This document shows positions 1,312-12,558 of a stretch of 40,346 nucleotides of DNA, in pieces. A model generated the notes under the pieces. That model had not been told where the DNA came from and made no database searches. It saw nothing but the letters and a program-made list of their open reading frames with translations. How positions within the stretch are numbered: position 1 is the stretch's first letter; every line of letters begins with the position of its first letter. The position numbers and the translations under genes were made by a program. Source of the DNA: an endosymbiont of Lamellibrachia barhami (GTDB lineage: Bacteria; Pseudomonadota; Gammaproteobacteria; Chromatiales; Chromatiaceae); assembly GCF_011947365.2 (NCBI RefSeq), contig NZ_JAAVSH020000001.1, positions 1,651,545 to 1,691,890 of the forward strand. Reading direction: 5' to 3'.

Positions 1312-3684
1312 TTACCCAGTGGGTCTCTTCAGCAGATCCCTGTTGTCGGTCACCATCTGTCGACCCAGATGAAATCCCAGCACACGATAGGCTTCGAACT
1401 GTTTCTCATCGAAGAACTGGTCGGCCGTGGATTCATCGGGGAAGGCCGGATGGGCTTTTTTATATCCGAGAAGGTCTTCTGGCAAATTGCGGACGTAGGT
1501 CGTTTTTATCAGGATCAGCGTGCCGTACTCAGCGCTGCTTTTTGCCCCCGGATACTTGATTGTCGCACGGACATAACCGGCGTCGGCGTATGGGATCTGT
1601 TTAGGGTCTTTGTGGTTACACTCATTGTGCGTCGATGGAATCAACGGACTCAGGCCCTCTTCGAATTCAATGCACACACCAAAGTCGGTACGGACCTTCT
1701 CGATGGCATTGGCAAGATCGCCGAACTGAAAATCGGGGTCGGCGCCGGCATCGCAGACAACGATCAGTTTCAGATGCCGCCGGATCAATTCATAGATGCC
1801 GAGGTTTTCGAAGTGGCCGCCGTCGCTCAGTTGCAGAAAAGATTCTTTTTCCGTCAGTTTCTTCCATGGCAGCAGTGGCCAGCTTCCAGGAGAGAGGAAA
1901 TTAGCCACCTTGGCCCATCTGCGGCATTGAGGGTCTGGATTGCTCACCCAGACACCCAGGCCGAGATTCAGAAACACCATCAGTCGTGACAGCAGGGGCT
2001 GACGGGTCGGGCCCTCGCCGCCGACGCCGGTATTCGGATTGGCAGCCGCCCCGGAGATGGCCATCGCGGTGGAGAGTGTCAGATCGCCACCCATATAGCT
2101 TTCGGTGCGGTGCCAGCCGGTGGCGTTGCTTCCGCAGAAACGTGGCGAGAGGAGAAAGTTGTCTCCGCCACGTCCACGGTATTTGTTGATGCCGGACTCC
2201 ACCAGGATCACGTTGGCATTGATCAAGTGATAGGGACCGACAGCGGAGTCCTTTGGATCCTCTGTTTCCACCGCACACATATCTTTCAGCGCGCCGATAT
2301 CCGCCAGGGGCGATGCCTGGGAAGGTCCCGGACTGCCGGCCAGAACGCGGCCGACATCCGGTAGATAGGACTCCATCAGGCGGTCACGGTAGTAACGATG
2401 AATGGAGAGATAGTTGATGCTGGCAAGCCATCCGATAAAGCTGGTGACCGCTACCCCCAATGCCAGATACCACCCGGCATCGATGTTGCTGCTCTCTGCG
2501 ACCCGAATCGCCATGTAGTAGGTGCCGACAAAAAGCCCCAGTGTGAGCAGCACGGATGCGATGAAGGCGAGCAGACCGGTGGAGAGTTTGCCCTGATCCT
2601 CTTTGCCGGATTTGAAAAATGAAGCCATCGCTGCAAGTACGCCGCCAATGGTGCTCAGCAGGGCCATCAATGGTCCCTTGGTATCATTGGCAATGTAGAT
2701 GGTTATGTCCGCCTTATTCAGATTCGGTTGCAGAAGTTTGGCAATCAGCTCGGTCAAGTCAGGCAGCCATCCCAACAATAGCAGTGCAGCACCGAGGGCT
2801 AGCAGGTAGGGCACCCATTTTTCATACTCCCGGCGCAACTTGTACCAGACAGTAATCCGCGACCATGCGCTTTTGTACGAAGAATTTTCCACCTTATGGG
2901 TTTTGCTCGACCAGCGGGTCAGAACGGCGTAAACAATCGACAGGACAAGGAAGGTGGCGAACAGTGCAAGGCCGCCAAAGGTGAACACGGTAACGTCACC
3001 ATAGACCTTGTCTGTGAACCAGCCGTTTTCCGCCAGTAGAAAGAAGACCAGCAGTAGCCAGGGAAGGAATACCATAATACTGATGAACATGCCCCGCAGG
3101 ATGACGCCGATCAGCGAGAGAAAGGTGATGCCGTCACCCGGTGTCAGATAGTTACCGTGTTGACGCAGATAGCGCAGGATGGCGGCGCCCCGGTAGTCGT
3201 CGCCACTGAGTTCAACCTTGTCGCCTTTGTCTGCTCCATTGTGCGGGTCTGCATCGCGGTTACGCAGTTTTGTGCCGTAGGGGAAGTCATCCACGGAGAC
3301 GCCGAAACGGATTTTGGGTGCGTTGGAGTCGTCATAAGCCTCCTTACGCTGTTTCCCCTCTGCCCATTTGCTGTGCAGAATCCAGGTCAGTGATGAACCG
3401 ATATAACCACCGCCAGAGACGGTGGAGAGATAGTCGAACCGCTTCATGATGCCTTCGCGGGCCAATGCCTGCATCACGCCAAGACAGAAGGTGGCGGAGC
3501 GGATACCGCCGCCGGAGAGGGCCAGGCCCGTCAGGTTTTTGTCTGTGGGTTCAGCCTGTGCGTGATTTTCACGCCGTTTGCTGATGTACTCATCCAACTC
3601 CTCCTGCATGATCTTCTCATCGGAGAAAGAGCCATCACTATTTCGGTAAGGAAGATAGGGTTCTTCGGTGGATTTTGCAGACAT
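1312..3684 (-). CDS. Patatin-like phospholipase with internal membrane domain
   Basis: The 790-residue protein carries a split patatin lipase fold. The oxyanion loop GGGIRS lies at residues 58-63, the nucleophile elbow STVSGGG has Ser at about 90, and the catalytic Asp is in SDGGHFENLG near residue 618. Between them, roughly residues 190-420, are about six hydrophobic segments that should span the membrane. The catalytic halves flank a membrane insert, unlike soluble bacterial patatins of 300-400 residues. The family hydrolyses acyl chains from phospholipids. The first residue of the GxSxG-type elbow is Thr rather than Gly. The start was set at ATG 3684, which has AGGG eight bases upstream; a GTG 54 bases earlier (3738) keeps the frame open but has no such site. 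The gene ends 75 bases before the Fur-family gene on the same strand. Confidence 0.85.
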   Translation of the reverse strand: MSAKSTEEPYLPYRNSDGSFSDEKIMQEELDEYISKRRENHAQAEPTDKNLTGLALSGGGIRSATFCLGVMQALAREGIMKRFDYLSTVSGGGYIGSSLTWILHSKWAEGKQRKEAYDDSNAPKIRFGVSVDDFPYGTKLRNRDADPHNGADKGDKVELSGDDYRGAAILRYLRQHGNYLTPGDGITFLSLIGVILRGMFISIMVFLPWLLLVFFLLAENGWFTDKVYGDVTVFTFGGLALFATFLVLSIVYAVLTRWSSKTHKVENSSYKSAWSRITVWYKLRREYEKWVPYLLALGAALLLLGWLPDLTELIAKLLQPNLNKADITIYIANDTKGPLMALLSTIGGVLAAMASFFKSGKEDQGKLSTGLLAFIASVLLTLGLFVGTYYMAIRVAESSNIDAGWYLALGVAVTSFIGWLASINYLSIHRYYRDRLMESYLPDVGRVLAGSPGPSQASPLADIGALKDMCAVETEDPKDSAVGPYHLINANVILVESGINKYRGRGGDNFLLSPRFCGSNATGWHRTESYMGGDLTLSTAMAISGAAANPNTGVGGEGPTRQPLLSRLMVFLNLGLGVWVSNPDPQCRRWAKVANFLSPGSWPLLPWKKLTEKESFLQLSDGGHFENLGIYELIRRHLKLIVVCDAGADPDFQFGDLANAIEKVRTDFGVCIEFEEGLSPLIPSTHNECNHKDPKQIPYADAGYVRATIKYPGAKSSAEYGTLILIKTTYVRNLPEDLLGYKKAHPAFPDESTADQFFDEKQFEAYRVLGFHLGRQMVTDNRDLLKRPTG

Positions 3685-3967
3685 TTGTTCATTCCCTGGA
3701 TTGGTTTTTTGTTGGCATGGAGGCGTTTTGTTCCTCACTTACAAGACTAGGCGAAAACCAGGTATTAAGAAAGATGCGGGTCGGATCGAACACATAGGCC
3801 AGTATCGGCTCAGACTTTGCTGAATCGAACCTCTTTGCCCGATCCGCTACGCTTGATCAGGCCTACATGGGTGGGGGATCATAATCGTCCTTGGTTGTGA
3901 AATAACCTACATCCCAGAAATGTAGGTCGGTTCAAGCGTAGCGGAACCGGCAATTTCGTCTGAATGA
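3685..3967. other. Intergenic stretch between dusA remnant and patatin gene
   Basis: About 280 bases without a convincing gene. The left part holds a pair of palindromic repeat units, listed separately. The part next to the patatin gene carries its ribosome binding site and presumably its promoter, but I could not pick out clear -35 and -10 boxes. Confidence 0.5.
3837..3953. repeat. REP-like repeat pair (family A)
   Basis: Two related units face each other: GATCCGCTACGCTTGATC followed by AGGCCTACAT, and ATGTAGGTCGG followed by TTCAAGCGTAGCGGAACC. Each is an imperfect palindrome. Close copies occur at about 11860, 21831, 25678 and 34527 in this window, always between genes. Such units usually act as mRNA-end hairpins or as targets of REP-associated transposases. 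Confidence 0.75.
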
Positions 3968-4285
3968 TCACGACGCGGCGTTGCCGGACCCTTCCGGAAC
4001 CAGAGCCGCCGCCTGCTGAATCAGCTCAGGACCTGCGTCGGGGTTATGGGCATGCTCGCTCAGATGGCGGCGCCAGGCACGAGCGCCGGGACAGCCGTGA
4101 AAAAGTCCGAGGATGTGCCGGGTGATGCGTTTGAGTGGAATACCTTTTTGGCACTGTAACTCAACAAATGGCAGGAGACTCTCCAACACCTGATGACGGC
4201 TGGCCAGAGGTCGTGTATCGCCATAAAGCCGGTGATCGGCTTGCGCCAGAATCCAGGGATTGTGGTAGGCAAGTCTCTTGCGTAC
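3968..4285 (-). pseudogene. dusA: tRNA-dihydrouridine synthase A, C-terminal remnant
   Basis: The translation from about 4285 down to TGA 3968-3970 matches only the C-terminal helical domain of DusA: LAYHNPWILAQADHRLYGD, then ITRHILGLFHGCPGARAWRR and HLSEHAHNPDAGPEL. DusA proteins have about 320-340 residues with an N-terminal FMN-binding TIM barrel that reduces uridine in the tRNA D-loop. The barrel and its catalytic cysteine are absent. The open frame continues upstream only by running antisense-free through the tRNA-Cys sequence, which is not protein-coding. The fragment lies directly downstream of tRNA-Cys, so a deletion or an excised element probably removed the 5' part. Family identity is strong; lack of function is inferred from the missing catalytic domain. 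Confidence 0.8.
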
Positions 4286-4337
4286 CAATTTTACTTCATC
4301 CGGGCGGATGAGCAGACAACAGAAGTTACAAAAGTAA

Positions 4338-4416
4338 TGGAGGCTGAGGTCGGAATCGAACTTCGGCGATCCACGGCTTTGCAGGCCGCTGCAGATAACC
4401 ACTCTGCCACTCAGCC
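4338..4416 (-). tRNA. tRNA-Cys (GCA), T-arm abnormal, possibly a pseudo-tRNA
   Basis: Acceptor strands GGCTGAG and CTCAGCC pair fully, the discriminator is T as in tRNA-Cys, and CCA is encoded. The D-stem GCAG/CTGC is intact. The anticodon stem-loop is GCGGC-CTGCAAA-GCCGT, giving anticodon GCA. The T-loop TTCGATT is normal, but the five bases before it (CGAAG) hardly pair with CCGAC after it, and the variable/T region is two to three bases too long. The gene also lies just after a strong terminator that follows tRNA-Gly. It may be a decayed copy or a chimera made when the dusA fragment arrived. Confidence 0.65.
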
Positions 4417-4464
4417 TATGAGAGGCTCAGATTCTACCACCATTAAGGTGGCAAATCTTGAAAC

Positions 4465-4490
4465 AAAAAAGCCTCGGTTTAGCCGAGGCT
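4465..4490 (-). terminator. Rho-independent terminator after tRNA-Gly
   Basis: On the minus strand AGCCTCGG, a short loop and CCGAGGCT form a perfect stem followed by TTTTTT. It lies 12 bases past the 3' end of tRNA-Gly and upstream of tRNA-Cys, so it should separate the two tRNAs, which are cotranscribed in many relatives. Confidence 0.85.
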
Positions 4491-4501
4491 CTTGAAAATA
4501 T

Positions 4502-4577
4502 TGGAGCGGGAAACGAGATTCGAACTCGCGACCCCAACCTTGGCAAGGTTGTGCTCTACCAGCTGAGCTATTCCCGC
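4502..4577 (-). tRNA. tRNA-Gly (GCC)
   Basis: A complete 76-base cloverleaf with encoded CCA. The acceptor stem starts GCGGGAA, the D-arm reads GCTCAGCTGGTAGAGC, the anticodon loop is CTTGCCAAG with anticodon GCC, and the T-arm is GCGAG-TTCGAAT-CTCGT. All stems pair well. In many gammaproteobacteria this tRNA lies right after pgsA; here a 7 kb operon separates them. Confidence 0.95.
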
Positions 4578-4683
4578 GTCACATAAGAACGAGGCGTATT
4601 TTAACGACACAGGTGCTACTGTCAACCCCTTTTTCCCTAATTAAAGAGGGATCAGAGGTCCACTCCCTCTCCAAGCGACGAAA

Positions 4684-5121
4684 TCAGTAACGAAAACCCT
4701 CACGCACCGGCAGGGTAATAGTCACTAGGTTCTCACTTTCAGCCCGTTTCATATTCTCCACATCGGCATCCCTGGGAATCGAAATGCGTTGACTGAAACT
4801 GCTCGAACTGCGACTGTAACTGTAGCTACCCTGCTCATTGCTCCGTTCTGCCTCCCGGCTGGTATCATTACTGATCACCAGGAATCTTCCCTTCACATTC
4901 ACCTGAACCGCTTGGGGATCGATGTTTTCAGTATGGATCCTTACCACATACCCCGCTTCGCTCCTGCCCTTTTCAATTCTCAACCGTTGAAAATGACGAA
5001 AACCGGAAGCTTGGTAAGGTGATCCCACGTATCCCGGATATCCATAGGGCGGCTGGGCATTCACCAGGAAGGCAAGACTCAGCAACACAGCCAAACTCAA
5101 TATTGTCAGTAACCGTTTCAT
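4684..5121 (-). CDS. Secreted small heat shock (Hsp20/alpha-crystallin) protein
   Basis: The 145-residue product starts with a Sec signal peptide (MKRLLTILSLAVLLSLAFLV, cleavage probably after NAQ), then a Pro/Tyr/Gly-rich linker (PPYGYPGYVGSPY). An alpha-crystallin-like beta domain follows: YVVRIHTENIDPQAVQVNVK, a serine-rich strand region, then FSQRISIPRDADVENMKRA and LVTITLP. Ordinary Hsp20 chaperones are cytoplasmic, so an exported form suggests a periplasmic chaperone or scaffold. It is the last gene of the six-gene AmmeMemoRadiSam operon: its ATG lies one base after the TAA of the Memo-AMMECR1 gene, whose final codons contain its AAGGAG site, so the two are translationally coupled. This placement suggests it assists an exported product of the same system, which is inference. 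Confidence 0.8.
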   Translation of the reverse strand: MKRLLTILSLAVLLSLAFLVNAQPPYGYPGYVGSPYQASGFRHFQRLRIEKGRSEAGYVVRIHTENIDPQAVQVNVKGRFLVISNDTSREAERSNEQGSYSYSRSSSSFSQRISIPRDADVENMKRAESENLVTITLPVREGFRY

Positions 5122-5124
5122 CTT

Positions 5125-6675
5125 TTACTCCTTTGCAGTCTCATGGCTGGAGCCATAAGGCGCTGCATACTTCTCACTATAAAACACTTCAAACTCTGCC
5201 CCATCTTTCCAGGCATCTGCGGGCAATCCCGCCTTTCTCGCCAGATAGGTCAGCGTCTGCTCCCGATTCCAACCCTGCTCCACCGCAACCTCCGGAAGAA
5301 AAACCGCACTTCGACCCTGTTTTGTTAAAATAATGCCCTGTTGACCCACTTTGAACGCTTCGTAGTGGGCAATGGGACGCGGAGGCGTCAGTACGCTCAC
5401 CTCAATCTCAAGCCCTTCCAACTCTTCCGGCGTTACCGGCGGAAAGCGGCGGTCCCGTACCGCTGCATTGCCACCATTCTTCAACACAGCCTGGAAGAGT
5501 GGGTCGCGTGGCCGGATATAGCCGATGCAACCGCGCAACATACCATCCTTCTTGAGAGTCACGAATGCCCCGGATGGCCGCTCAAGCTCCGGCGGCAGAT
5601 TGCGCAACCACTGCTCGCCTTCATGCTTGTCATCCAGTACCGCACGCCTGACTCCGGCCACGGCAATCCGGTGTAATATCTTGAGCTGCTCGCGACTCAG
5701 CCTCCCGTCTGAACCCTGGCTGTCAGCGATTGCTGTCTGGGCACTCACTGCAATCACCACGTAGCTGACCGAATTTTCATAGTCGCCGGTCAGTTGACCA
5801 CTGGTCTCATAGACCAGCTGTTCCAGTTCAGCCGAGACCGGCAGCATGTGCAGCAGTAGTGCAATGGGACGAAATCCACAGATGGTGATGCCGGTGCGCT
5901 GTTGATAGTCGAGAAACCCCCTTGCATCCCCCTCCACTATCCGTTCAATCGCATCCCCATCCAGTTGCTGGATATTTGCAGGCGTCTCATCATTCAACGG
6001 AAACGGCGTATAGCCAAACCGTTTGCCATAGTGTGCGAAGTCGCTGGAGACCACCACCAGGGTTTGCTCATCCGCCAGCTCCCGCAGCAGTTTTGCTGCC
6101 TGCGGGTAGGTCTCATCGTCCATCTGCCCCACCAGTACCGGCACCAGTTTCCAGCCTGGTTCCAGCACGCGTTGCAGCAGCGGCAGTTCAATTTCGATGC
6201 TGTGTTCCCGTTTGTGTGCCTCTGTATGGGCACTGACAAGGGGAGATCTGCGCAACTGCTGCACTGCAACCTGATCCAGCGACACAGTGCCCAGCGGAGT
6301 CTGATAGGCAGCCACATCTGCAATAGAGAGTCCCTTGAAGGCGCTGTAGTGGCTGGGCGCCAGCAACAGAACCCGTGTGAAATCCATGCCGCGCACCAAC
6401 CTGAAGGCTTTGGCTGCGGTTGGCCCGCTGTACATGTAACCGGCGTGGGGAACGATCAGCGCCCGGAGAGGATTTTTCGCCTTGGGCCGGACATCGGAAG
6501 GGTCATCCAGAAAGCCGTCCACAACCTTGGCCAGCTGTAGCGAATTATCCGGATACCAGGCGCCTGCAAGCACACTCTCCCTGACCTTTTCACCCGCAAG
6601 GGAGTGGGATATCAGCAACAGCCCCGCCACCAGCAGCGCGGCAATTATCCATAGCCGAAACTGACCGAATCTCAT
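5125..6675 (-). CDS. AmmeMemoRadiSam system proteins B and A fused (Memo + AMMECR1), exported
   Basis: The 516-residue product has an N-terminal hydrophobic signal (residues 8-27, WIIAALLVAGLLLISHSL), then a Memo domain (about 35-310) and an AMMECR1 domain (about 325-505). Memo hallmarks are PHAGYMYSG with His77, APSHY with His109 and TICGFRP with Cys266, the positions expected to bind metal in the active-site cleft. The AMMECR1 hallmark LRGCIGYI is at 380-387. In other genomes Memo and AMMECR1 genes sit beside a radical SAM gene and the role is unknown; here both are fused and carry an export signal. The gene lies 12 bases after the small Tat-signal gene, with GGGGAGAGAAG as ribosome binding site, and overlaps regulatory sequence of the Hsp20 gene downstream. 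The biochemical activity is not known. Confidence 0.9.
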   Translation of the reverse strand: MRFGQFRLWIIAALLVAGLLLISHSLAGEKVRESVLAGAWYPDNSLQLAKVVDGFLDDPSDVRPKAKNPLRALIVPHAGYMYSGPTAAKAFRLVRGMDFTRVLLLAPSHYSAFKGLSIADVAAYQTPLGTVSLDQVAVQQLRRSPLVSAHTEAHKREHSIEIELPLLQRVLEPGWKLVPVLVGQMDDETYPQAAKLLRELADEQTLVVVSSDFAHYGKRFGYTPFPLNDETPANIQQLDGDAIERIVEGDARGFLDYQQRTGITICGFRPIALLLHMLPVSAELEQLVYETSGQLTGDYENSVSYVVIAVSAQTAIADSQGSDGRLSREQLKILHRIAVAGVRRAVLDDKHEGEQWLRNLPPELERPSGAFVTLKKDGMLRGCIGYIRPRDPLFQAVLKNGGNAAVRDRRFPPVTPEELEGLEIEVSVLTPPRPIAHYEAFKVGQQGIILTKQGRSAVFLPEVAVEQGWNREQTLTYLARKAGLPADAWKDGAEFEVFYSEKYAAPYGSSHETAKE

Positions 6676-6687
6676 TCTTCTCTCCCC

Positions 6688-6849
6688 CTATTCGTCTGAT
6701 CCCCTGGGCCGGTAGTAGTCCGCCTCACGCATGGCCATTTTCTTCTCCCGCGCGCTTCCAACCGTCCAGGGGAGGGCCACCACTCCTGCGAGCATACCAC
6801 CCAGCACTCCCAGAAAACGTCTGCGGGAATGCCTGTTGCGTTTCATCAT
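6688..6849 (-). CDS. Small Tat-signal protein of the AmmeMemoRadiSam operon
   Basis: A 53-codon frame fits between the radical SAM gene and the Memo-AMMECR1 gene. It starts with a twin-arginine signal, NRHSRRRFLGVLGGMLAGVV, which matches the S-R-R-x-F-L consensus, followed by ALPWTVGSA as a likely cleavage region. The remaining mature part is only about 20 residues, REKKMAMREADYYRPRGSDE. Two adjacent ATG codons (6849 and 6846) can serve; the first has GAGG about nine bases upstream. Its stop is 12 bases before the next gene, so it belongs to the operon. It could be a peptide substrate of the radical SAM enzyme or a Tat-exported accessory factor. Both are inference, and the function is unknown. 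Confidence 0.7.
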   Translation of the reverse strand: MMKRNRHSRRRFLGVLGGMLAGVVALPWTVGSAREKKMAMREADYYRPRGSDE

Positions 6850-6860
6850 CTCTCTCATCC

Positions 6861-7841
6861 TCATTGCCAGACTCCCGGAACCGGCTCATTACAGGTCGGG
6901 CAGCGACCGTCGCTGGTCAGGTTGTATTCACTGATCAGGAAACCCTCTCTCTTGATCAACAGAGTGCCGTCGACCGGACAGTAGGTTGAATTGCCCATAT
7001 GTCCTGAGATATTGCCGATATAGACGTATTTCAACCCCGCATCCATCGCCTCCTGACGCGCACGATCCAGGGTCTCTCCCGGCGTCGGCGGCAGGTTGCG
7101 CATCCGGTACATGGGATGAAAGCGGCTGAAGTGGAGGGGAGTACCCTCCCCCAACTCACTTCTGATCCACTTCGCCATGCGCCGGATCATGGAGAGATCA
7201 TCATTCAGCGTCGGGATAAGCAGATTGGTCACCTCCAGCCAGACCCCCTCCTCCCGAAAAGTCACCAGGGCATCCAATACCGGCTGCAGCGTTGCCCCGG
7301 TGGTTTTGCGGTAGAAACCGTCGTCGAATGCCTTCAGATCGGTGTTAGTGGCATCGATCACTTTGCAGAGACGGCGCAGAGGCTCGGTATTGATATAGCC
7401 GGCGGTGATGAATACATTCTGCATCCCGGCCTCATGCGCCAGGATACTGCTGTCATAGACATATTCGTAGAAAACCACCGGATCGGAGTAGGTGTAGGCG
7501 ATGCTTTCGCAGCCCTGATCTCTGGCCAGGGCAACGAGATCCACGGGGTCAGCGTTGAAGATCTTCTCTATCTCCTCCCCGCCACTTTGGGAGAGTTGCC
7601 AGTTCTGGCAGTTGAGGCAGTGCAGGTTGCAACCTGCCGTCGCAATGGAAAACACGGGTGAGCCGGGATGAAAATGGTAGAGCGGTTTCTTCTCCATCGG
7701 ATCGACGTGCATCGCAGAGGGCCGTCCGTAGGTGGAAGCCAGCAGTTTGCCACCAATATTAACCCGCACCCGGCAGTCACCTGCCCCCCCTTCGGGGATC
7801 ACACACTTGCGCGGACAGAGTTCGCAAACCACCTCTCTCAT
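6861..7841 (-). CDS. AmmeMemoRadiSam system radical SAM enzyme
   Basis: The 326-residue product has the cluster motif CNLHCLNC (Cys71, Cys75, Cys78), a CX3CX2C site for the SAM-binding 4Fe-4S cluster. A cysteine-rich N-terminus (CELCPRKC, then Cys23) and a C-terminal pair of zinc-ribbon-like motifs (TYCPVDG and GRCPTCNEP) complete the pattern of the AmmeMemoRadiSam enzymes, which resemble pyruvate formate-lyase activating enzymes. No signal peptide is present, so it acts in the cytoplasm. The start was placed at ATG 7841: AGGGG lies seven bases upstream and the ATG overlaps the TGA of the 88-residue gene (ATGA). An in-frame start 57 bases further up would overlap that gene more. It is followed after 11 bases by the Tat-signal gene. 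Its substrate is unknown. Confidence 0.9.
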   Translation of the reverse strand: MREVVCELCPRKCVIPEGGAGDCRVRVNIGGKLLASTYGRPSAMHVDPMEKKPLYHFHPGSPVFSIATAGCNLHCLNCQNWQLSQSGGEEIEKIFNADPVDLVALARDQGCESIAYTYSDPVVFYEYVYDSSILAHEAGMQNVFITAGYINTEPLRRLCKVIDATNTDLKAFDDGFYRKTTGATLQPVLDALVTFREEGVWLEVTNLLIPTLNDDLSMIRRMAKWIRSELGEGTPLHFSRFHPMYRMRNLPPTPGETLDRARQEAMDAGLKYVYIGNISGHMGNSTYCPVDGTLLIKREGFLISEYNLTSDGRCPTCNEPVPGVWQ

Positions 7842-8104
7842 GGCGTACCCCTGGGCTTGCGTTGCTGCAACTCCGCTGGTTTGGCGACGTGGAACCACTC
7901 AGCTTCATGAGCGCTCAACTTGCCGCTATCCAGCCTTTCCTGGAAGATTTCCATATCGATTCGCCGCCAGCTTGAGCCGGTCATCTCCGTCTGTTGCTGC
8001 CCGACCAGAAACAGCGCGATCACGACCAACGTCAGGCTCAACAGCCCGACGAGTCTGTAATCACTGCTATGCCAATGTCGGATCGCTTGCAACATGGAGA
8101 TCAT
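7838..8104 (-). CDS. Small single-span membrane protein of the AmmeMemoRadiSam operon
   Basis: The 88-residue product has one hydrophobic segment (about residues 18-35, RLVGLLSLTLVVIALFLVG) and a polar tail of about 50 residues rich in charged side chains. No known domain was recognised. Its stop overlaps the start of the radical SAM gene by ATGA, and it begins 70 bases after the large fusion gene, so it is clearly inside the operon. A second ATG three codons in (8095) is equally possible; neither has a strong ribosome binding site. It may anchor or link the cytoplasmic enzyme to the membrane fusion protein, but this is only a guess from context. Confidence 0.65.
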   Translation of the reverse strand: MISMLQAIRHWHSSDYRLVGLLSLTLVVIALFLVGQQQTEMTGSSWRRIDMEIFQERLDSGKLSAHEAEWFHVAKPAELQQRKPRGTP

Positions 8105-8174
8105 GGCCCAAATTTTCCGCTTCCTTCTAACAGTTTAGACAGAAACTTCCGGCCTGTGTTTTACCCGATTACCG

Positions 8175-11100
8175 CTATCTCTCCTTGCCGAACCCACGGA
8201 GCTTGAGATGGGTATCCCTGCCGGTAAGACAGCGGTTGCAACGGATACAGTCGATATCGAAGGTTTCCCGCACTCCGAGGTCACAATGGTTGAAACGGCG
8301 CTCCGGCGCCAGTCGCTGCAACAGGGCAAATTTATTGCCGAAGGCCAAAAACGCCCCCAGCGGGCAGAGATAACGGCACCAAAAACGGTAGTGGAACAGC
8401 GCGCCCAGCAAGACCAGCAGCAGAATTCCCAGCATCCATTCAGGCCAGTGCTCACCGAATACATACTGCATCGGATCGAATAGTGCCCAGGATGAATCAC
8501 CGCTACCCCATACCACAATCAACAACAAACCGAGCAGCAGATACTTCAAAAACCGCAGCCGGGAATCCAACGGGCGGCTGGCATAGCTGCGCAAACCCAG
8601 CCGATGCCCGATTCGGGAGACAAACTCCTGCAATGCCCCAAACGGACAGAGATAGCCACACCAGACCGGACCAAACAGCAGGGTCGTAACAAGCGCAAAT
8701 CCGATCAGCAGCCAGTGTTGCGGATTATCGGCAATAGAGGAGAAAAGCCCAAAACCAAGATTGACCAGATCCACCTCAGTCACCTGGCTGTTGAGCCAAA
8801 ACCCAAGAATCATCAAGGCAGCGAACTGATAGATCAATCTGCCATTTTCACTGCCTGAAAGATAAACGGGAAAAAACAGCAGCAGCAGTCCCACTGTCAC
8901 CATAAACTCAGGAGAGTACCAAGCGGGTTGTGCCTCCTCTTGTGATGCGGCTTGGGCAAAACTTTTACCGAACGCGGTTTGCCCTGCCACGCGAGCCGCC
9001 TGGTTGATCGATGCCAAAGCCGCCTCACTACTGATGGTCGCTCCGGTGAGGGCATCAACACGGGAGAGCGATAACGGCCCAACCGAGAGGTCCATGCCTG
9101 CAAGCCCGGTAAGCCAACCATCGATGCCGGAAATATAGGAGGGGGTCTCATTGGAATCGATATAACGCACCTCCCGCAATCGCCCCTTTGCATCCACGGA
9201 GAGCAACAGGTTGATCGGTCCGGCAAAACCCAACACCTCCGGCGCCACCGCCATTGTAGCCAAGGCAAAAATATCGGCAGTACCCTTTGGAACCGACCCA
9301 AGATAGTGGATGAAAGGCATTTCCTTCAGTTCAAACACGCTCGATTCACTGACTGTCGCCAGCAATTGATCACTGAAATGGAGTTGAGGCGCAGGTTTTA
9401 TGGCCTGCTGATACTGTGCCCAGGCAAGACTCAGCAACACGAGAAAAACCAGCCTCCACCCCAGATTGGGCCAGGGAAAGGCGTGTCTGCCCCTGAGCTG
9501 TAGTGGCGTCATCCTTTGCGGCGCTATTGCAGTAAACAGCAATGGCAGGAGCATCAGTAGGGTGAAGATCGCCAGCAGGTAGCTGCTCCACTCGATACCA
9601 AGCAGCGGCACCATCAACGCCCCGGTCAGCAGTCCGCCAACAGCGCCACCCAGGTTATCCGCCGCCTGGGTTATGCCACTGCTACGCACCACCGCCGCCT
9701 GCTCCAACTCGGTGATCTTTACTGCCAACGGAAATCCTGTGCCCGCCAGCAGCCCCAACAGCAGCGAGATCAGAAGATAGCCCCACTCCTGCCAGCCAAT
9801 CGCCAACTGACCAAGCCAGTTCAACAGATGGGGCAGCGCAGCCAGAAATATGGTCACCAGTATCAGTACGATCCCCAGGCGGAGGGCAGGACGATCGGTA
9901 CGAGCCAGCAGACTGCCCGCCCCTGCCCCTAACGCCAGACCGGTCATAAAAAGCCCATTGAGCAGGGCCACCCGCTCAAACATAAAGCCGATATGGGACT
10001 GGTAACTGAACAGCACGGCAAGCTGGGCGGCCATCGCAACCAGTCCGAGCACGAAGAGGATCAGCGTGGATGCCTTGCGCAGACGGCTGCTGCGTTGACC
10101 ACCTTCAAGTGAGGTGCGCAGCAGCCAGAGCAGAAGAAACAGCAGCATCGGCAGCAAATAAGCCCAAATTCCCACACCACGCAACTGTTCCATCCAGTCG
10201 GCAAAGCCAGAGGCGCTGAACTGCCCCCACAACAGCATGTTCAGGTAGTAGGTAACGGGCCGTGCATCGCTGTTGCGTTCACTGCCGGGCTGCTCCAGCT
10301 GATCCCGCACAAAACGCACCTCATCATCCGGCAAGATCGTGTAGAAAACTTTCGCCGGGAACCGATGATCTTCGAGCGGGATATCCAGGTAGCGCAATTC
10401 CAGCTCCGACGCCGATTCAGTCACTCGTCCGGCAGCGGTGGATGCACAGAAGAGATAATTATCACCGGGTGCGACCGCTACATTTGGCAACACCTCCCGC
10501 AGCGTGCGAAAGACCGACCCGCTGAAACTGCGAACTGTGCGCCCGAGATAGTTGGAGGCGCCACTCACGCGGGTGCAAAACACCCCGTCTGACGCGAGTT
10601 GATGCCGCACGCCCTGATAGAACTCCGAGGTAAAATAGCGGTTGCTGTAGGCGCTGGAAGGGGTCGCATTGAGCACCAGCACCAGATTGTAGTGTTCGGC
10701 CACCGGTAAGCTGTTGAGATAGCGTCGACCATCCATGAAATGAATCTGGAGACGGGGATCGGCCAGTGCCTTGCGGCTCTGCTCCGGCAGGTAGGGCATG
10801 ACTTTCCGAAAGGCCTGCTCATCCTCTTCCACCACGTCGATTTGGGTAACCGGGTAGTGCAGCAGCTCCACCGCCAGGCCACTGGCAAATCCGCCGAACA
10901 GCAGTACCCGTTTTGCGCCTGCCGCCTGGGACATGAGATAGGCAGCCTGTTGACGAATCTCGAGCGGCAAGGGAAAACTCTCTGCCACCTGGCCGTTGTT
11001 CACCAGCGTCGTCTGCCCGCCAAAACCCGCTATAGCCAAATGCCCATAGCGAGTCTCCGTCGCATCGAACAACTCCAGGCCCGGCTGCAAGGTGGAAAAA

Positions 11101-11813
11101 CGCAGGGTCTCCATCTGCCGGTCGAGCCAGGGACTGACGACAGGTAAAGTAATGATTAAACCGAGAACTGCCAGCAGGATGGCTGGCCAGCGTGATCCGG
11201 CGCTGCTTCGTTTTAATTTTAGCGCTGTGACCGCCAGCAACAGGGTAGTCACCCCAAGCGTAGCGGTGATTCCCAGCCACTGTATAAAGACAAAGGTGAA
11301 GAGCACCCCACCCAGCAGGGCTCCAAGTGCATCCGCAATGTAGAGCCTGGAGATATCCCTGACGGTTTCCTGATTCCCCCCATCACCGGCATAATCCCGC
11401 AACGCTTTGCAGGCCAGCGGAAAGGCGAAACCCAACAGCAGGCTGCCGGGGGCGACAATAAGAAAGAGGGAGAGAAAGAGCTCCCCCAGTGGTACGAATT
11501 CGCTGGCGGAGACATCCAACAGCAGACGCACGGTGCGTAACATCAACACCTGCAGGATCAGTACCAAAGGTAGCAGTAGCAACAGGCGGCTGATCCAGGG
11601 CAGAGGATCCTGCACCATAGGCCGTTCCCGCCAACGCACCACCAGCAGGGAACCCAGTGCCAGCCAGAAGAGCCAGCTGCCGAAGAAAGCACCCAGACTC
11701 ACTTCGTTGCCGTAGAAGACCACCAGCCCCTCCCTAATCAGAAGAGCCTGCACGATCTGGGAATAGGCGCCCAGAATCAGGATGGCAAGAAAGATCCTGC
11801 GGCTGGTTGGCAT
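8175..11813 (-). CDS. Membrane fusion: spermidine synthase-like transporter/methyltransferase fold, FMN-binding domain, NosR/NapH-type Fe-S domain
   Basis: At 1212 residues this combines modules usually found in separate proteins. Residues 1-215 are a membrane bundle as in fused MFS/spermidine synthase proteins. Residues about 225-500 form a Rossmann spermidine synthase-like domain (RVLLFGGFASGLAVELLHYP near 300, then IDVVEEDE). A second membrane bundle runs to about 790. An FMN-binding domain (about 830-935) carries DALTGATISS near 920, the flavin attachment motif modified by ApbE. The last 220 residues hold membrane segments with CGYLCPFGAL, CRYLCPLGAF and CIRCNRC, as in NosR/NapH electron-transfer proteins. 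It probably passes electrons across the inner membrane to the exported partners, which is inference. It heads the operon; no regulatory site was recognised upstream beyond a repeat pair. Confidence 0.8.
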   Translation of the reverse strand: MPTSRRIFLAILILGAYSQIVQALLIREGLVVFYGNEVSLGAFFGSWLFWLALGSLLVVRWRERPMVQDPLPWISRLLLLLPLVLILQVLMLRTVRLLLDVSASEFVPLGELFLSLFLIVAPGSLLLGFAFPLACKALRDYAGDGGNQETVRDISRLYIADALGALLGGVLFTFVFIQWLGITATLGVTTLLLAVTALKLKRSSAGSRWPAILLAVLGLIITLPVVSPWLDRQMETLRFSTLQPGLELFDATETRYGHLAIAGFGGQTTLVNNGQVAESFPLPLEIRQQAAYLMSQAAGAKRVLLFGGFASGLAVELLHYPVTQIDVVEEDEQAFRKVMPYLPEQSRKALADPRLQIHFMDGRRYLNSLPVAEHYNLVLVLNATPSSAYSNRYFTSEFYQGVRHQLASDGVFCTRVSGASNYLGRTVRSFSGSVFRTLREVLPNVAVAPGDNYLFCASTAAGRVTESASELELRYLDIPLEDHRFPAKVFYTILPDDEVRFVRDQLEQPGSERNSDARPVTYYLNMLLWGQFSASGFADWMEQLRGVGIWAYLLPMLLFLLLWLLRTSLEGGQRSSRLRKASTLILFVLGLVAMAAQLAVLFSYQSHIGFMFERVALLNGLFMTGLALGAGAGSLLARTDRPALRLGIVLILVTIFLAALPHLLNWLGQLAIGWQEWGYLLISLLLGLLAGTGFPLAVKITELEQAAVVRSSGITQAADNLGGAVGGLLTGALMVPLLGIEWSSYLLAIFTLLMLLPLLFTAIAPQRMTPLQLRGRHAFPWPNLGWRLVFLVLLSLAWAQYQQAIKPAPQLHFSDQLLATVSESSVFELKEMPFIHYLGSVPKGTADIFALATMAVAPEVLGFAGPINLLLSVDAKGRLREVRYIDSNETPSYISGIDGWLTGLAGMDLSVGPLSLSRVDALTGATISSEAALASINQAARVAGQTAFGKSFAQAASQEEAQPAWYSPEFMVTVGLLLLFFPVYLSGSENGRLIYQFAALMILGFWLNSQVTEVDLVNLGFGLFSSIADNPQHWLLIGFALVTTLLFGPVWCGYLCPFGALQEFVSRIGHRLGLRSYASRPLDSRLRFLKYLLLGLLLIVVWGSGDSSWALFDPMQYVFGEHWPEWMLGILLLVLLGALFHYRFWCRYLCPLGAFLAFGNKFALLQRLAPERRFNHCDLGVRETFDIDCIRCNRCLTGRDTHLKLRGFGKER

Positions 11814-11859
11814 ACCACTAGTCTAGGTGAAATTGACCACCAGAAAATACCAATAACCC

Positions 11860-11950
11860 GCAGGCCTGATCAAGCGCAGCGAATCAGGCGTAATGCGCCA
11901 TGAATGATCAGCTTATGCCGGATCCGCTACGCTCGATCCAGCCTACATTT
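11860..11950. repeat. REP-like repeat pair (family A)
   Basis: Two facing units: AGGCCTGATCAAGCGCAGC with AATCAGGC, then GCCGGATCCGCTACGCTCGA with TCCAGCCTACAT. It occupies most of the gap between pgsA and the large fusion gene. It resembles the pairs at 3837, 21831 and 25678. Confidence 0.75.
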
Positions 11951-11973
11951 CGAGTGGGATGGGATCAGGTTGC

Positions 11974-12558
11974 TCACTCTTTTTCCAGTTCACCCTCAAC
12001 CACAACCTGGCCCTTCAAACTGGGCCAGGCTGCACGCAGGTAGATAATCATCGACCAGAGCGTCAGAATCGCCGATATATAGAGCAGTACAAAACCGACT
12101 GTATGGATCGGCAATCCCCACAAGTCTTGCTGAATGATCAGTAGCAGAATAGCCAGCATCTGAACCGCAGTTTTGAATTTGCCAATGACAGACACCGCCA
12201 CCTGAGCCCGAGCCCCCAGTGCGGCCATCCACTCCCGCAGGGCCGATATGGTGATCTCACGTCCGATAATGATGGCGGCGGGCAGTGCCAGCCAGGGGGT
12301 GGGTTCCGACTGCACCAGCAATAACAGAGCAACGGCTACCATCAGCTTGTCGGCAACCGGGTCGAGAAAGGCCCCAAAGGGCGACACCTGTCCCCAGCGG
12401 CGGGCCAGAAATCCATCCAGCCAGTCTGTGACTGCAGCCAGAGAGAAGACGGCGGCGCAGCCTATCCGCGCCCACTCGACCGGCAGATAGAAAATCAGCA
12501 CGAAGACCGGTATCAGGACGATCCGCAGCAAGGTGAGAAGATTGGGGATGTTCCACAT
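11974..12558 (-). CDS. pgsA: CDP-diacylglycerol--glycerol-3-phosphate 3-phosphatidyltransferase
   Basis: The enzyme makes phosphatidylglycerol phosphate from CDP-diacylglycerol and glycerol 3-phosphate in the inner membrane, the committed step to phosphatidylglycerol and cardiolipin. The 194-residue product has the full CDP-alcohol phosphatidyltransferase signature at residues 45-70: DWLDGFLARRW, then G and D residues ending FLDPVAD. Several membrane helices follow. The length is normal. It starts six bases after the uvrC stop, with GGAGAAG as ribosome binding site inside the uvrC end, so the two genes form one transcript as in most gammaproteobacteria. Downstream, where tRNA genes would normally follow, there is a repeat pair and then the AmmeMemoRadiSam operon. 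Confidence 0.95.
   Translation of the reverse strand: MWNIPNLLTLLRIVLIPVFVLIFYLPVEWARIGCAAVFSLAAVTDWLDGFLARRWGQVSPFGAFLDPVADKLMVAVALLLLVQSEPTPWLALPAAIIIGREITISALREWMAALGARAQVAVSVIGKFKTAVQMLAILLLIIQQDLWGLPIHTVGFVLLYISAILTLWSMIIYLRAAWPSLKGQVVVEGELEKE

Follow-up and report, generated by a model that had tools for sequence, protein, structure and literature searches.

AmmeMemoRadiSam (TIGR04335/TIGR04336/TIGR04337; amrA, amrB, amrS) is an ancient, unexplained three-protein system, and the locus described here raises the question of what such a system does when part of it appears to work outside the membrane. The locus lies in a stretch of 40,346 nucleotides (the window) from the 4.17 Mb genome of an endosymbiont of Lamellibrachia barhami. 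A first-pass annotation had pointed out six minus-strand genes, and all six are present from position 11813 down to 4684; they encode a 1212-residue membrane protein, an 88-residue one-span protein, a radical SAM enzyme, a twin-arginine mini-protein, an exported Memo-AMMECR1 fusion and an Hsp20. The three AmmeMemoRadiSam families score over their cut-offs in near-adjacent genes, as in the ordinary system. However, the Memo-AMMECR1 of the window is exported and fused, its radical SAM enzyme lacks an N-terminal aromatic element and belongs to a distinct clade, and a mini-protein, a tail protein and a large membrane protein are added. The gene set is real; much the same set is found far outside this genome, in several distant bacterial phyla. 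By recurrence, its core consists of the cytosolic radical SAM enzyme, the twin-arginine mini-protein, the exported Memo-AMMECR1, the large membrane protein and the 88-residue one-span protein, which very probably constitute one functional unit spanning the membrane, a form of AmmeMemoRadiSam.

Recurrence and co-occurrence of the gene set

Within the order (210 genomes), the 1212-residue protein has matches in 28 genomes (E up to 1e-30) and Memo-AMMECR1 in 29 (E up to 1e-60), namely the same 28 and G023; some of the 29 matches (e.g. in G489) comprise the Memo part alone. The exported Memo protein is thus found in 28/28 genomes with the large protein and in 1/182 without it, which does not amount to 210 independent trials, since the genomes are related. 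In G516, G426 and G563 the co-occurrence is kept with the two genes on separate contigs. As a class-wide bait the radical SAM enzyme proved too general (183/369 genomes matched, those listed outside its own genome at 44-51% identity), and the large protein and Memo-AMMECR1 were therefore used as baits.

A search with an alignment of 16 large proteins yielded 54 loci from Gammaproteobacteria, Magnetococcales, a Myxococcales metagenome-assembled genome (MAG), Deltaproteobacteria, Planctomycetota, Verrucomicrobiota-type lineages, Hydrogenedentota and others, the match being confined to about the first 760 residues in the Armatimonadota and Omnitrophota rows. According to purpose-built hidden Markov models the parts recur together, though not at every locus, partly because contigs end. 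The order radical SAM, mini-gene, Memo-AMMECR1, large protein is seen, as far as the contig reaches, at twelve non-gammaproteobacterial loci (L160, L161, L163, L169, L171, L172, L174-L177, L180, L181), and the gammaproteobacterial order is kept in L153 from Magnetococcales. Spacing varies: about 3 kb (7035-10063) separates the genes for the large and the 88-residue protein in L121, and about 2 kb with extra open reading frames (ORFs), between 6317 and 8335, separates the mini-gene from Memo-AMMECR1 in L163.

Of the 54 loci, 22 had their genomes searched for TIGR04337, which is present in 22/22. The radical SAM type of this set, judged by score, model start and locus, is counted in 17 of the 19 genomes whose large protein reaches the flavin mononucleotide (FMN) part (G575 and G586 being the others), and not in three genomes with the 760-residue form (G585, G589, G594). 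In the Verrucomicrobiota-type phylum the L170 protein is matched in 38/288 genomes, and the radical SAM enzyme was tested in 30 of these 38 and in 20 of the 250 others. A radical SAM protein at 353-406 bits is present in 28 of the 30, three of which prove to be of another type when read (L322, L328, L329); this leaves at most 25/30, or 26 if the unread second match in G833 counts, an upper figure because most of the proteins were assigned, unread, by score band. Of the 20 genomes without an L170-protein match, eight have any radical SAM match (E up to 1e-60) and none falls in the 353-406-bit band. The first-pass annotation had asked whether the set recurs elsewhere; recurrence and co-occurrence are found both in the order and in other phyla, which disfavors chance as an explanation.

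The exported fusion and its membrane partner

The Memo-AMMECR1 gene (5125..6675, minus strand) encodes an N-terminal signal followed by Memo (TIGR04336, 229.2 bits, cut-off 26) and AMMECR1 (TIGR04335, 161.6 bits, cut-off 99). Judged by hydropathy only, a hydrophobic N-terminal segment is present on 45/45 Memo rows of the set (window means 1.44-3.44; L180 and L199 are one protein), with a lipobox flagged in 8/45. The four ordinary Memo rows have N-terminal window means from -0.52 to 1.31 and no clear segment, so that by hydropathy this set departs from the ordinary form, whose Memo carries no export signal. H77, H109 and C266, invariant across 19 aligned exported Memo proteins, align (counted by hand) with H49, H81 and C244 of MEMO1, the iron ligands of that protein (PMC11081632). 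The predicted model (pLDDT, i.e. predicted local distance difference test, 90.7) resembles MEMO1 first (template modeling score 0.87 by target length); AMMECR1-type proteins come next, followed by ring-opening dioxygenases of DOPA and aminophenol. The arrangement of the two domains was not used, because the predicted template modeling score (pTM) is only 0.65. A phosphotyrosine site of ERBB2 is bound through the active-site pocket of MEMO1 (PMC7694686).

The 1212-residue protein (8175..11813, minus strand) scores over the cut-offs of PF01564, PF04205 and, in two stretches, PF12801. It begins with 14 transmembrane (TM) segments, with a spermidine-synthase-like domain (within residues 228-546) between TM7 and TM8, and continues with TM15, an FMN-binding domain (862-940), five TM segments with two CX3CP motifs, and a C-terminal four-Cys motif. 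The 20 spans and their sides come from hydropathy and the positive-inside rule only; the charges fit the spermidine-synthase-like and FMN domains being outside and the C-terminal Cys motif inside. The spermidine-synthase-like fold is recovered in the predicted model. The acids of GGGDGG and DxxDP, which we take to be catalytic in spermidine synthase, are lost: GGGDGG has become GGFASG and DxxDP is absent (alignment with 6qmm and 3bwb). The domain and fold are shared with fused MFS/spermidine synthases (NF037959, 50.6 bits, cut-off 40) and polyamine aminopropyltransferases; unlike in spermidine synthases, the domain is predicted to lie outside the membrane.

FMN_bind (PF04205, 41.5 bits, cut-off 22) includes the [ST]GAT site, where flavin attachment is predicted; two ApbE genes are found in the genome, both outside the window. 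D920, G924-A925-T926 and eight Cys are invariant in 16 gammaproteobacterial large proteins, and the FMN site and Cys are frequent beyond them. In FMN_bind, [ST]GAT, CX3CP membrane motifs and C-terminal Cys the protein resembles the flavinylated electron-transfer proteins of the NosR/RnfG type. However, its FMN part sits behind a fused membrane spermidine-synthase-like protein, the NosR equivalog model NF046105 gives 65.3 bits (cut-off 1000), and Pfam recognizes only Fer4_5 and no further ferredoxin domain. The L170 protein has no iron-sulfur (Fe-S) part, and its gene is followed directly by rnfA, rnfB and rnfC (3783-6337); the same genome has the radical SAM enzyme and the Memo of this set on another contig (L201). 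In this single case the Fe-S part seems to be replaced by a different electron carrier of the membrane. Electron supply is common but not universal, since L170 lacks the Fe-S part and L285-L287 lack FMN too.

Recurrence, co-occurrence and hydropathy support the first-pass reading of a set that spans the membrane, in which Memo-AMMECR1 is exported and has an FMN/Fe-S partner in the membrane; the set is conserved as a unit. The emphasis of that reading on carrying electrons holds in part: the FMN/Fe-S partner belongs to the conserved unit, but electron transfer as the essence of the system is weakened by Verrucomicrobiota-type homologues that are without the Fe-S part and in some cases also without FMN.

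A motif shared by two small proteins and other radical SAM enzymes

The 88-residue protein (7838..8104, minus strand) reaches no family cut-off and ends in LSAHEAEWFH, which comparison with homologues generalizes to LS-x-[HR]-E-A-x-aromatic-aromatic. C-termini of the form [VI]D...L...I...LS-x-[HR]-E-A-x-[FWY]-[YFW], or close to it, occur in 21 gammaproteobacterial proteins and at 16 further loci (L145 being on the same contig as L118, and two more examples being found later); E is absent from the tails of L072, L115, L159 and L166. Several lineages carry the tail as a fusion, at the C-terminus of the large protein. The tail is most likely located on the FMN side of the membrane, because in L170/L274 and L297 the FMN domain leads to the tail with no TM segment between (maximal hydropathy 0.71 in L170/L274; L292, L298 and L299 look the same by eye), and seven fused cases with the Fe-S part have, by a crude count, 5-7 spans between FMN domain and tail, where six are expected. 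The positive charges favor an inside N-terminus in 11/20 proteins, with the reverse in 1/20 and a tie in 8/20.

The mini-gene (6688..6849, minus strand) encodes a 53-residue twin-arginine protein with the tail MREADYYRPRGSDE, a candidate substrate or partner peptide. It reaches no family cut-off; TIGR01409, the model of the twin-arginine translocation (Tat) signal, gives it 13.4 bits (cut-off 16.7), and among five mini-proteins scanned three score 13.4-14.5 bits and two have no match. Sixty sources (the window, L072, L074, L119, L125, L206 and L128-L181) were scanned for mini-genes, and in 36 of them a radical SAM gene is followed within 3.2 kb by Memo or AMMECR1. By a permissive filter, 36/36 of these loci have, between the two genes, a short ORF that encodes a twin basic motif plus a hydrophobic stretch; five of the 36 are from one genus. 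Glycine is the last residue in 24/36 mini-proteins, and EA-x-aromatic-aromatic/His stands near the end in 22/36; the Planctomycetota-type tail is of another kind, YPGPVRPLD...GKWAG. A matrix built from the tails of the 88-residue type gives scores of 9.5-21.8 to 15 mini-protein tails listed by hand; the top score among 3000 random 12-mers is 9.0. A DNA pattern of the motif matched only the 88-residue and mini-gene sites in the whole genome, but these sites had themselves defined the pattern, and its backwards control matched three times; it was set aside.

The radical SAM enzyme (6861..7841, minus strand; TIGR04337, 396 bits, cut-off 220) belongs, in a tree of 53 radical SAM proteins, to a single clade of 25 rows that extends from Planctomycetota to Gammaproteobacteria (support 83/97) and corresponds to this set; 23 of its rows were labelled, and L073 and L107 were assigned by eye, because the label pattern missed them. 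The enzyme begins directly at the cysteine domain. In contrast, an aromatic pair 4-21 residues before the first Cys, a mark of the ordinary form, is found in 43/44 canonical gammaproteobacterial and 31/38 other enzymes (together 74/82) and in 0/12 of this clade. The pattern [EQ][AC]-x-aromatic/His-aromatic precedes the first Cys in 13/38 non-gammaproteobacterial enzymes of other types, e.g. LSLREAMYYDKL (L271), KEARYW (L193) and REALYY (L322), and in 0/12 of this clade; the 12,624 residues that make up the remainder of the 38 enzymes contain no match. These direct counts replaced a matrix scan of the N-termini (15/58, 15/23 and, in a further scan, 31/82, with 1/12 of this clade), which was not decisive. 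In G833 and G964 a motif-bearing radical SAM enzyme adjoins a tail-less membrane spermidine-synthase-like protein, which suggests that placement of the motif on the radical SAM enzyme or on the membrane protein is complementary.

The recurrence of a like motif in the tail of the 88-residue protein, in many mini-proteins and at the N-terminus of other radical SAM enzymes of the family is a new observation; the first-pass annotation missed it, as well as the absence of the N-terminal element from the radical SAM enzyme of this set. We infer that the motif may be a docking or substrate peptide that was relocated outside along with Memo-AMMECR1.

Several further arrangements of radical SAM enzymes were seen. 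In L303/L328 and L301/L329 an enzyme of another type with N-terminal HEARFY or REALYW stands beside a tail-less membrane spermidine-synthase-like protein. In L186, L190, L256 and L257 the enzyme lies inside open frames of 1078-1171 codons, probably natural multi-domain fusions, which in L186 and L190 also contain AMMECR1 and a weak, partial Memo match. Ordinary radical SAM enzymes occur on plasmids in six records, of which the one looked at is from Segatella (KECRYYTKIEEG). One genome of the genus has a third TIGR04337-type enzyme (229 bits; G005:C1:4242925-4243782, L076).

A possible mechanism, its rivals and the setting of the locus

The sequence features invite a mechanism for an exported target, of which the mini-protein would be the first candidate. 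The substrate of the cytosolic radical SAM enzyme would be the short Tat mini-protein, whose gene follows immediately, and Tat would export the finished peptide. In a comparable way, in the maturation of quinohemoprotein amine dehydrogenase, a small subunit is modified by a cytosolic radical SAM enzyme and then exported; the likeness to the proposed path is one of analogy. Outside, Memo-AMMECR1 would bind such tails and perform an iron-dependent step, tethered to the membrane by the motif tail of the 88-residue protein, or of the large protein where the tail is fused to it, as is often the case, and perhaps also held there by the periplasmic spermidine-synthase-like domain. The FMN/Fe-S part, where present, would move electrons from the cytosol or the quinone pool to the periplasmic FMN, so that either the Memo iron stays reduced or the product becomes reduced; a model for such a carrier may be the ferredoxins that are said to return the oxidized iron of extradiol enzymes to its reduced state (PMC3222310). 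E-A-x-aromatic-aromatic would then be a contact or substrate peptide of Memo/AMMECR1, and in the ordinary cytosolic system a like element would be carried on the radical SAM N-terminus. As a whole, the mechanism with the mini-protein as the radical SAM substrate, and with Memo-AMMECR1 acting on or holding such tails outside, is proposed tentatively, as somewhat short of probable.

A number of observations weigh against it. In part they concern the composition of the set: G023 has the exported Memo protein and no large protein (an ORF upstream of its 88-residue gene resembles, by eye, a MerR-type regulator), L153 has AMMECR1 without detected Memo in the exported place, and L143 has Memo without detected AMMECR1. 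Verrucomicrobiota-type homologues lack the Fe-S part, and some lack FMN too; FMN is missing in L285-L287, which keep the tail and have Memo and AMMECR1 matches nearby. L288 and L289, with neither FMN nor tail though their genomes hold this set's radical SAM enzyme, do not fit the complementary placement of the motif. The support of the radical SAM clade, 83/97, is below the usual 95, and one ordinary Memo row (1.31) comes near the weakest exported one (1.44). The N-terminal pattern is found in 0/44 canonical gammaproteobacterial enzymes, and ten of 100 column-permuted matrices did as well as the 31/82 of the matrix scan (mean of the permuted matrices 12.1, maximum 57), since the match is driven by nothing more than the aromatic pair. 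The Planctomycetota- and Verrucomicrobiota-type mini-protein tails (YPG...GKWAG) differ, and the L072 and L147 mini-proteins have no aromatic residue in the conserved last 16 residues, so that no single target residue is conserved. Finally, MEMO1 had no dioxygenase activity on the substrates tried by its authors, including L-DOPA (PMC11081632).

The like motif on two different small proteins and on other radical SAM N-termini would also be expected for docking, and the spermidine-synthase-like domain keeps its fold despite the loss of the GGGDGG acid and DxxDP. It is therefore conceivable, if rather unlikely, that the mini-protein and the tail of the 88-residue protein are assembly subunits that clip Memo-AMMECR1 to a membrane complex, the true substrate being a small molecule at the periplasmic spermidine-synthase-like domain. 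Docking, however, requires neither Tat export nor a fixed place directly after the radical SAM gene (36/36), and a related radical SAM type is found in peptide-processing systems: the FtsH-ternary systems have a Memo-Ammecr1-like radical SAM enzyme beside a small-protein gene whose conserved part is the C-terminal peptide (PMC7159879). The likeness to these systems is by that paper's description, and the present set differs from them in that no metallopeptidase or conflict gene was recognized in the unannotated neighbor clusters listed.

MEMO1 binds iron (PMC11081632), the metal ligands are invariant in the 19 aligned exported proteins, and the FMN and Fe-S motifs are widespread; a system whose main task is the handling of iron or some other metal outside the membrane, reduced by the FMN/Fe-S protein and bound by the exported Memo, would agree with all three. 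It would account for neither the radical SAM enzyme nor the mini-protein, FMN is absent in some lineages, and, as a weak further point, no metal transporter was recognized among the same unannotated clusters, so we regard it as quite improbable. It appears highly improbable that the radical SAM enzyme has some other target and that the genes have no more than an operon in common, in view of the co-occurrence across contigs and phyla and the single clade of this enzyme, even though operon neighbors need no common substrate and Hsp20 illustrates that neighbors come and go.

The Hsp20 gene (4684..5121, minus strand; signal-bearing, PF00011, 33.8 bits, cut-off 20.8) is a local neighbor outside the conserved set: among the mapped loci, some of which end shortly after Memo-AMMECR1, it adjoins the set only in the six genomes of the genus and one Sedimenticola MAG (L110, same contig as L136). 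The membership in the system that the first-pass annotation gave it was thus not borne out. Other recurrent neighbors were rejected, the listed clusters, made without annotation, being by eye mostly antisense shadows of core genes. The gaps of 11 and 12 bases reported around the mini-gene are correct if it starts at ATG 6849. The ATGA overlap assigned to the 1212- and 88-residue genes was misplaced: these lie 70 bases apart, and the overlap joins the 88-residue stop and the radical SAM ATG at 7841; the single base reported between Memo-AMMECR1 and Hsp20 is in fact three. A single transcript found no support in a scan of 4300-12200: the minus strand has just one promoter-like site, at 4625-4598 before the tRNA, and there are two promoter-like sites in total (3.8 in shuffles) and 16 terminator-like sites, some within genes (7.5 in shuffles).

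Upstream of the set are pgsA and uvrC, and downstream tRNA-Gly and tRNA-Cys; the window also encodes a patatin-like protein with hydrophobic stretches (1312-3738) and a Fur-family regulator near Irr models (785-1237). Because an ordinary set sits elsewhere in the same genome (L002, L020, L034), the window set is a paralogue. At 1.11 Mb (G000:C1:1111013-1112869) genes for a radical SAM enzyme (648 bits) and for a Memo protein that has no export signal adjoin an ORF whose sequence, by eye, resembles the end of HypF, and an AMMECR1 gene lies at 1.134 Mb (1133971-1134495).

We found no earlier report of an exported AmmeMemoRadiSam form in the literature searched, where the AmmeMemoRadiSam passages seen are mere gene mentions. 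The search returned no paper combining AMMECR1, MEMO1 and radical SAM, and none joining at least three of Memo-like protein, AMMECR1, spermidine synthase, FMN-binding and radical SAM; in the main text of the flavinylation paper PMC8238504 the terms spermidine, memo and radical SAM do not occur. Conservation of MEMO1 extends from archaea to humans (PMC7694686), its primary molecular function continues to be described as unknown (PMC11081632), and AMMECR1 (PF01871) is listed, by our own reading of the columns of a survey table, in 3.38% of aerobic against 50.66% of anaerobic bacteria (PMC13386939). It is possible, though unlikely, that AmmeMemoRadiSam is at heart a machine for modifying peptide tails, with the E-A-x-aromatic-aromatic tail as its substrate or docking peptide, ordinarily on the radical SAM enzyme and here on exported small proteins. 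The exported form would then mature a Tat-delivered peptide into a redox-active, e.g. tyrosine-derived, cofactor read by the membrane FMN/Fe-S chain, and human MEMO1 and AMMECR1 would descend from such peptide-binding enzymes. The membrane-split form and its two tiny proteins with a shared tail name candidate partners, the mini-protein as a substrate and the tail as a ligand, and in this way the exported form supplies concrete candidate targets for an ancient three-protein system.

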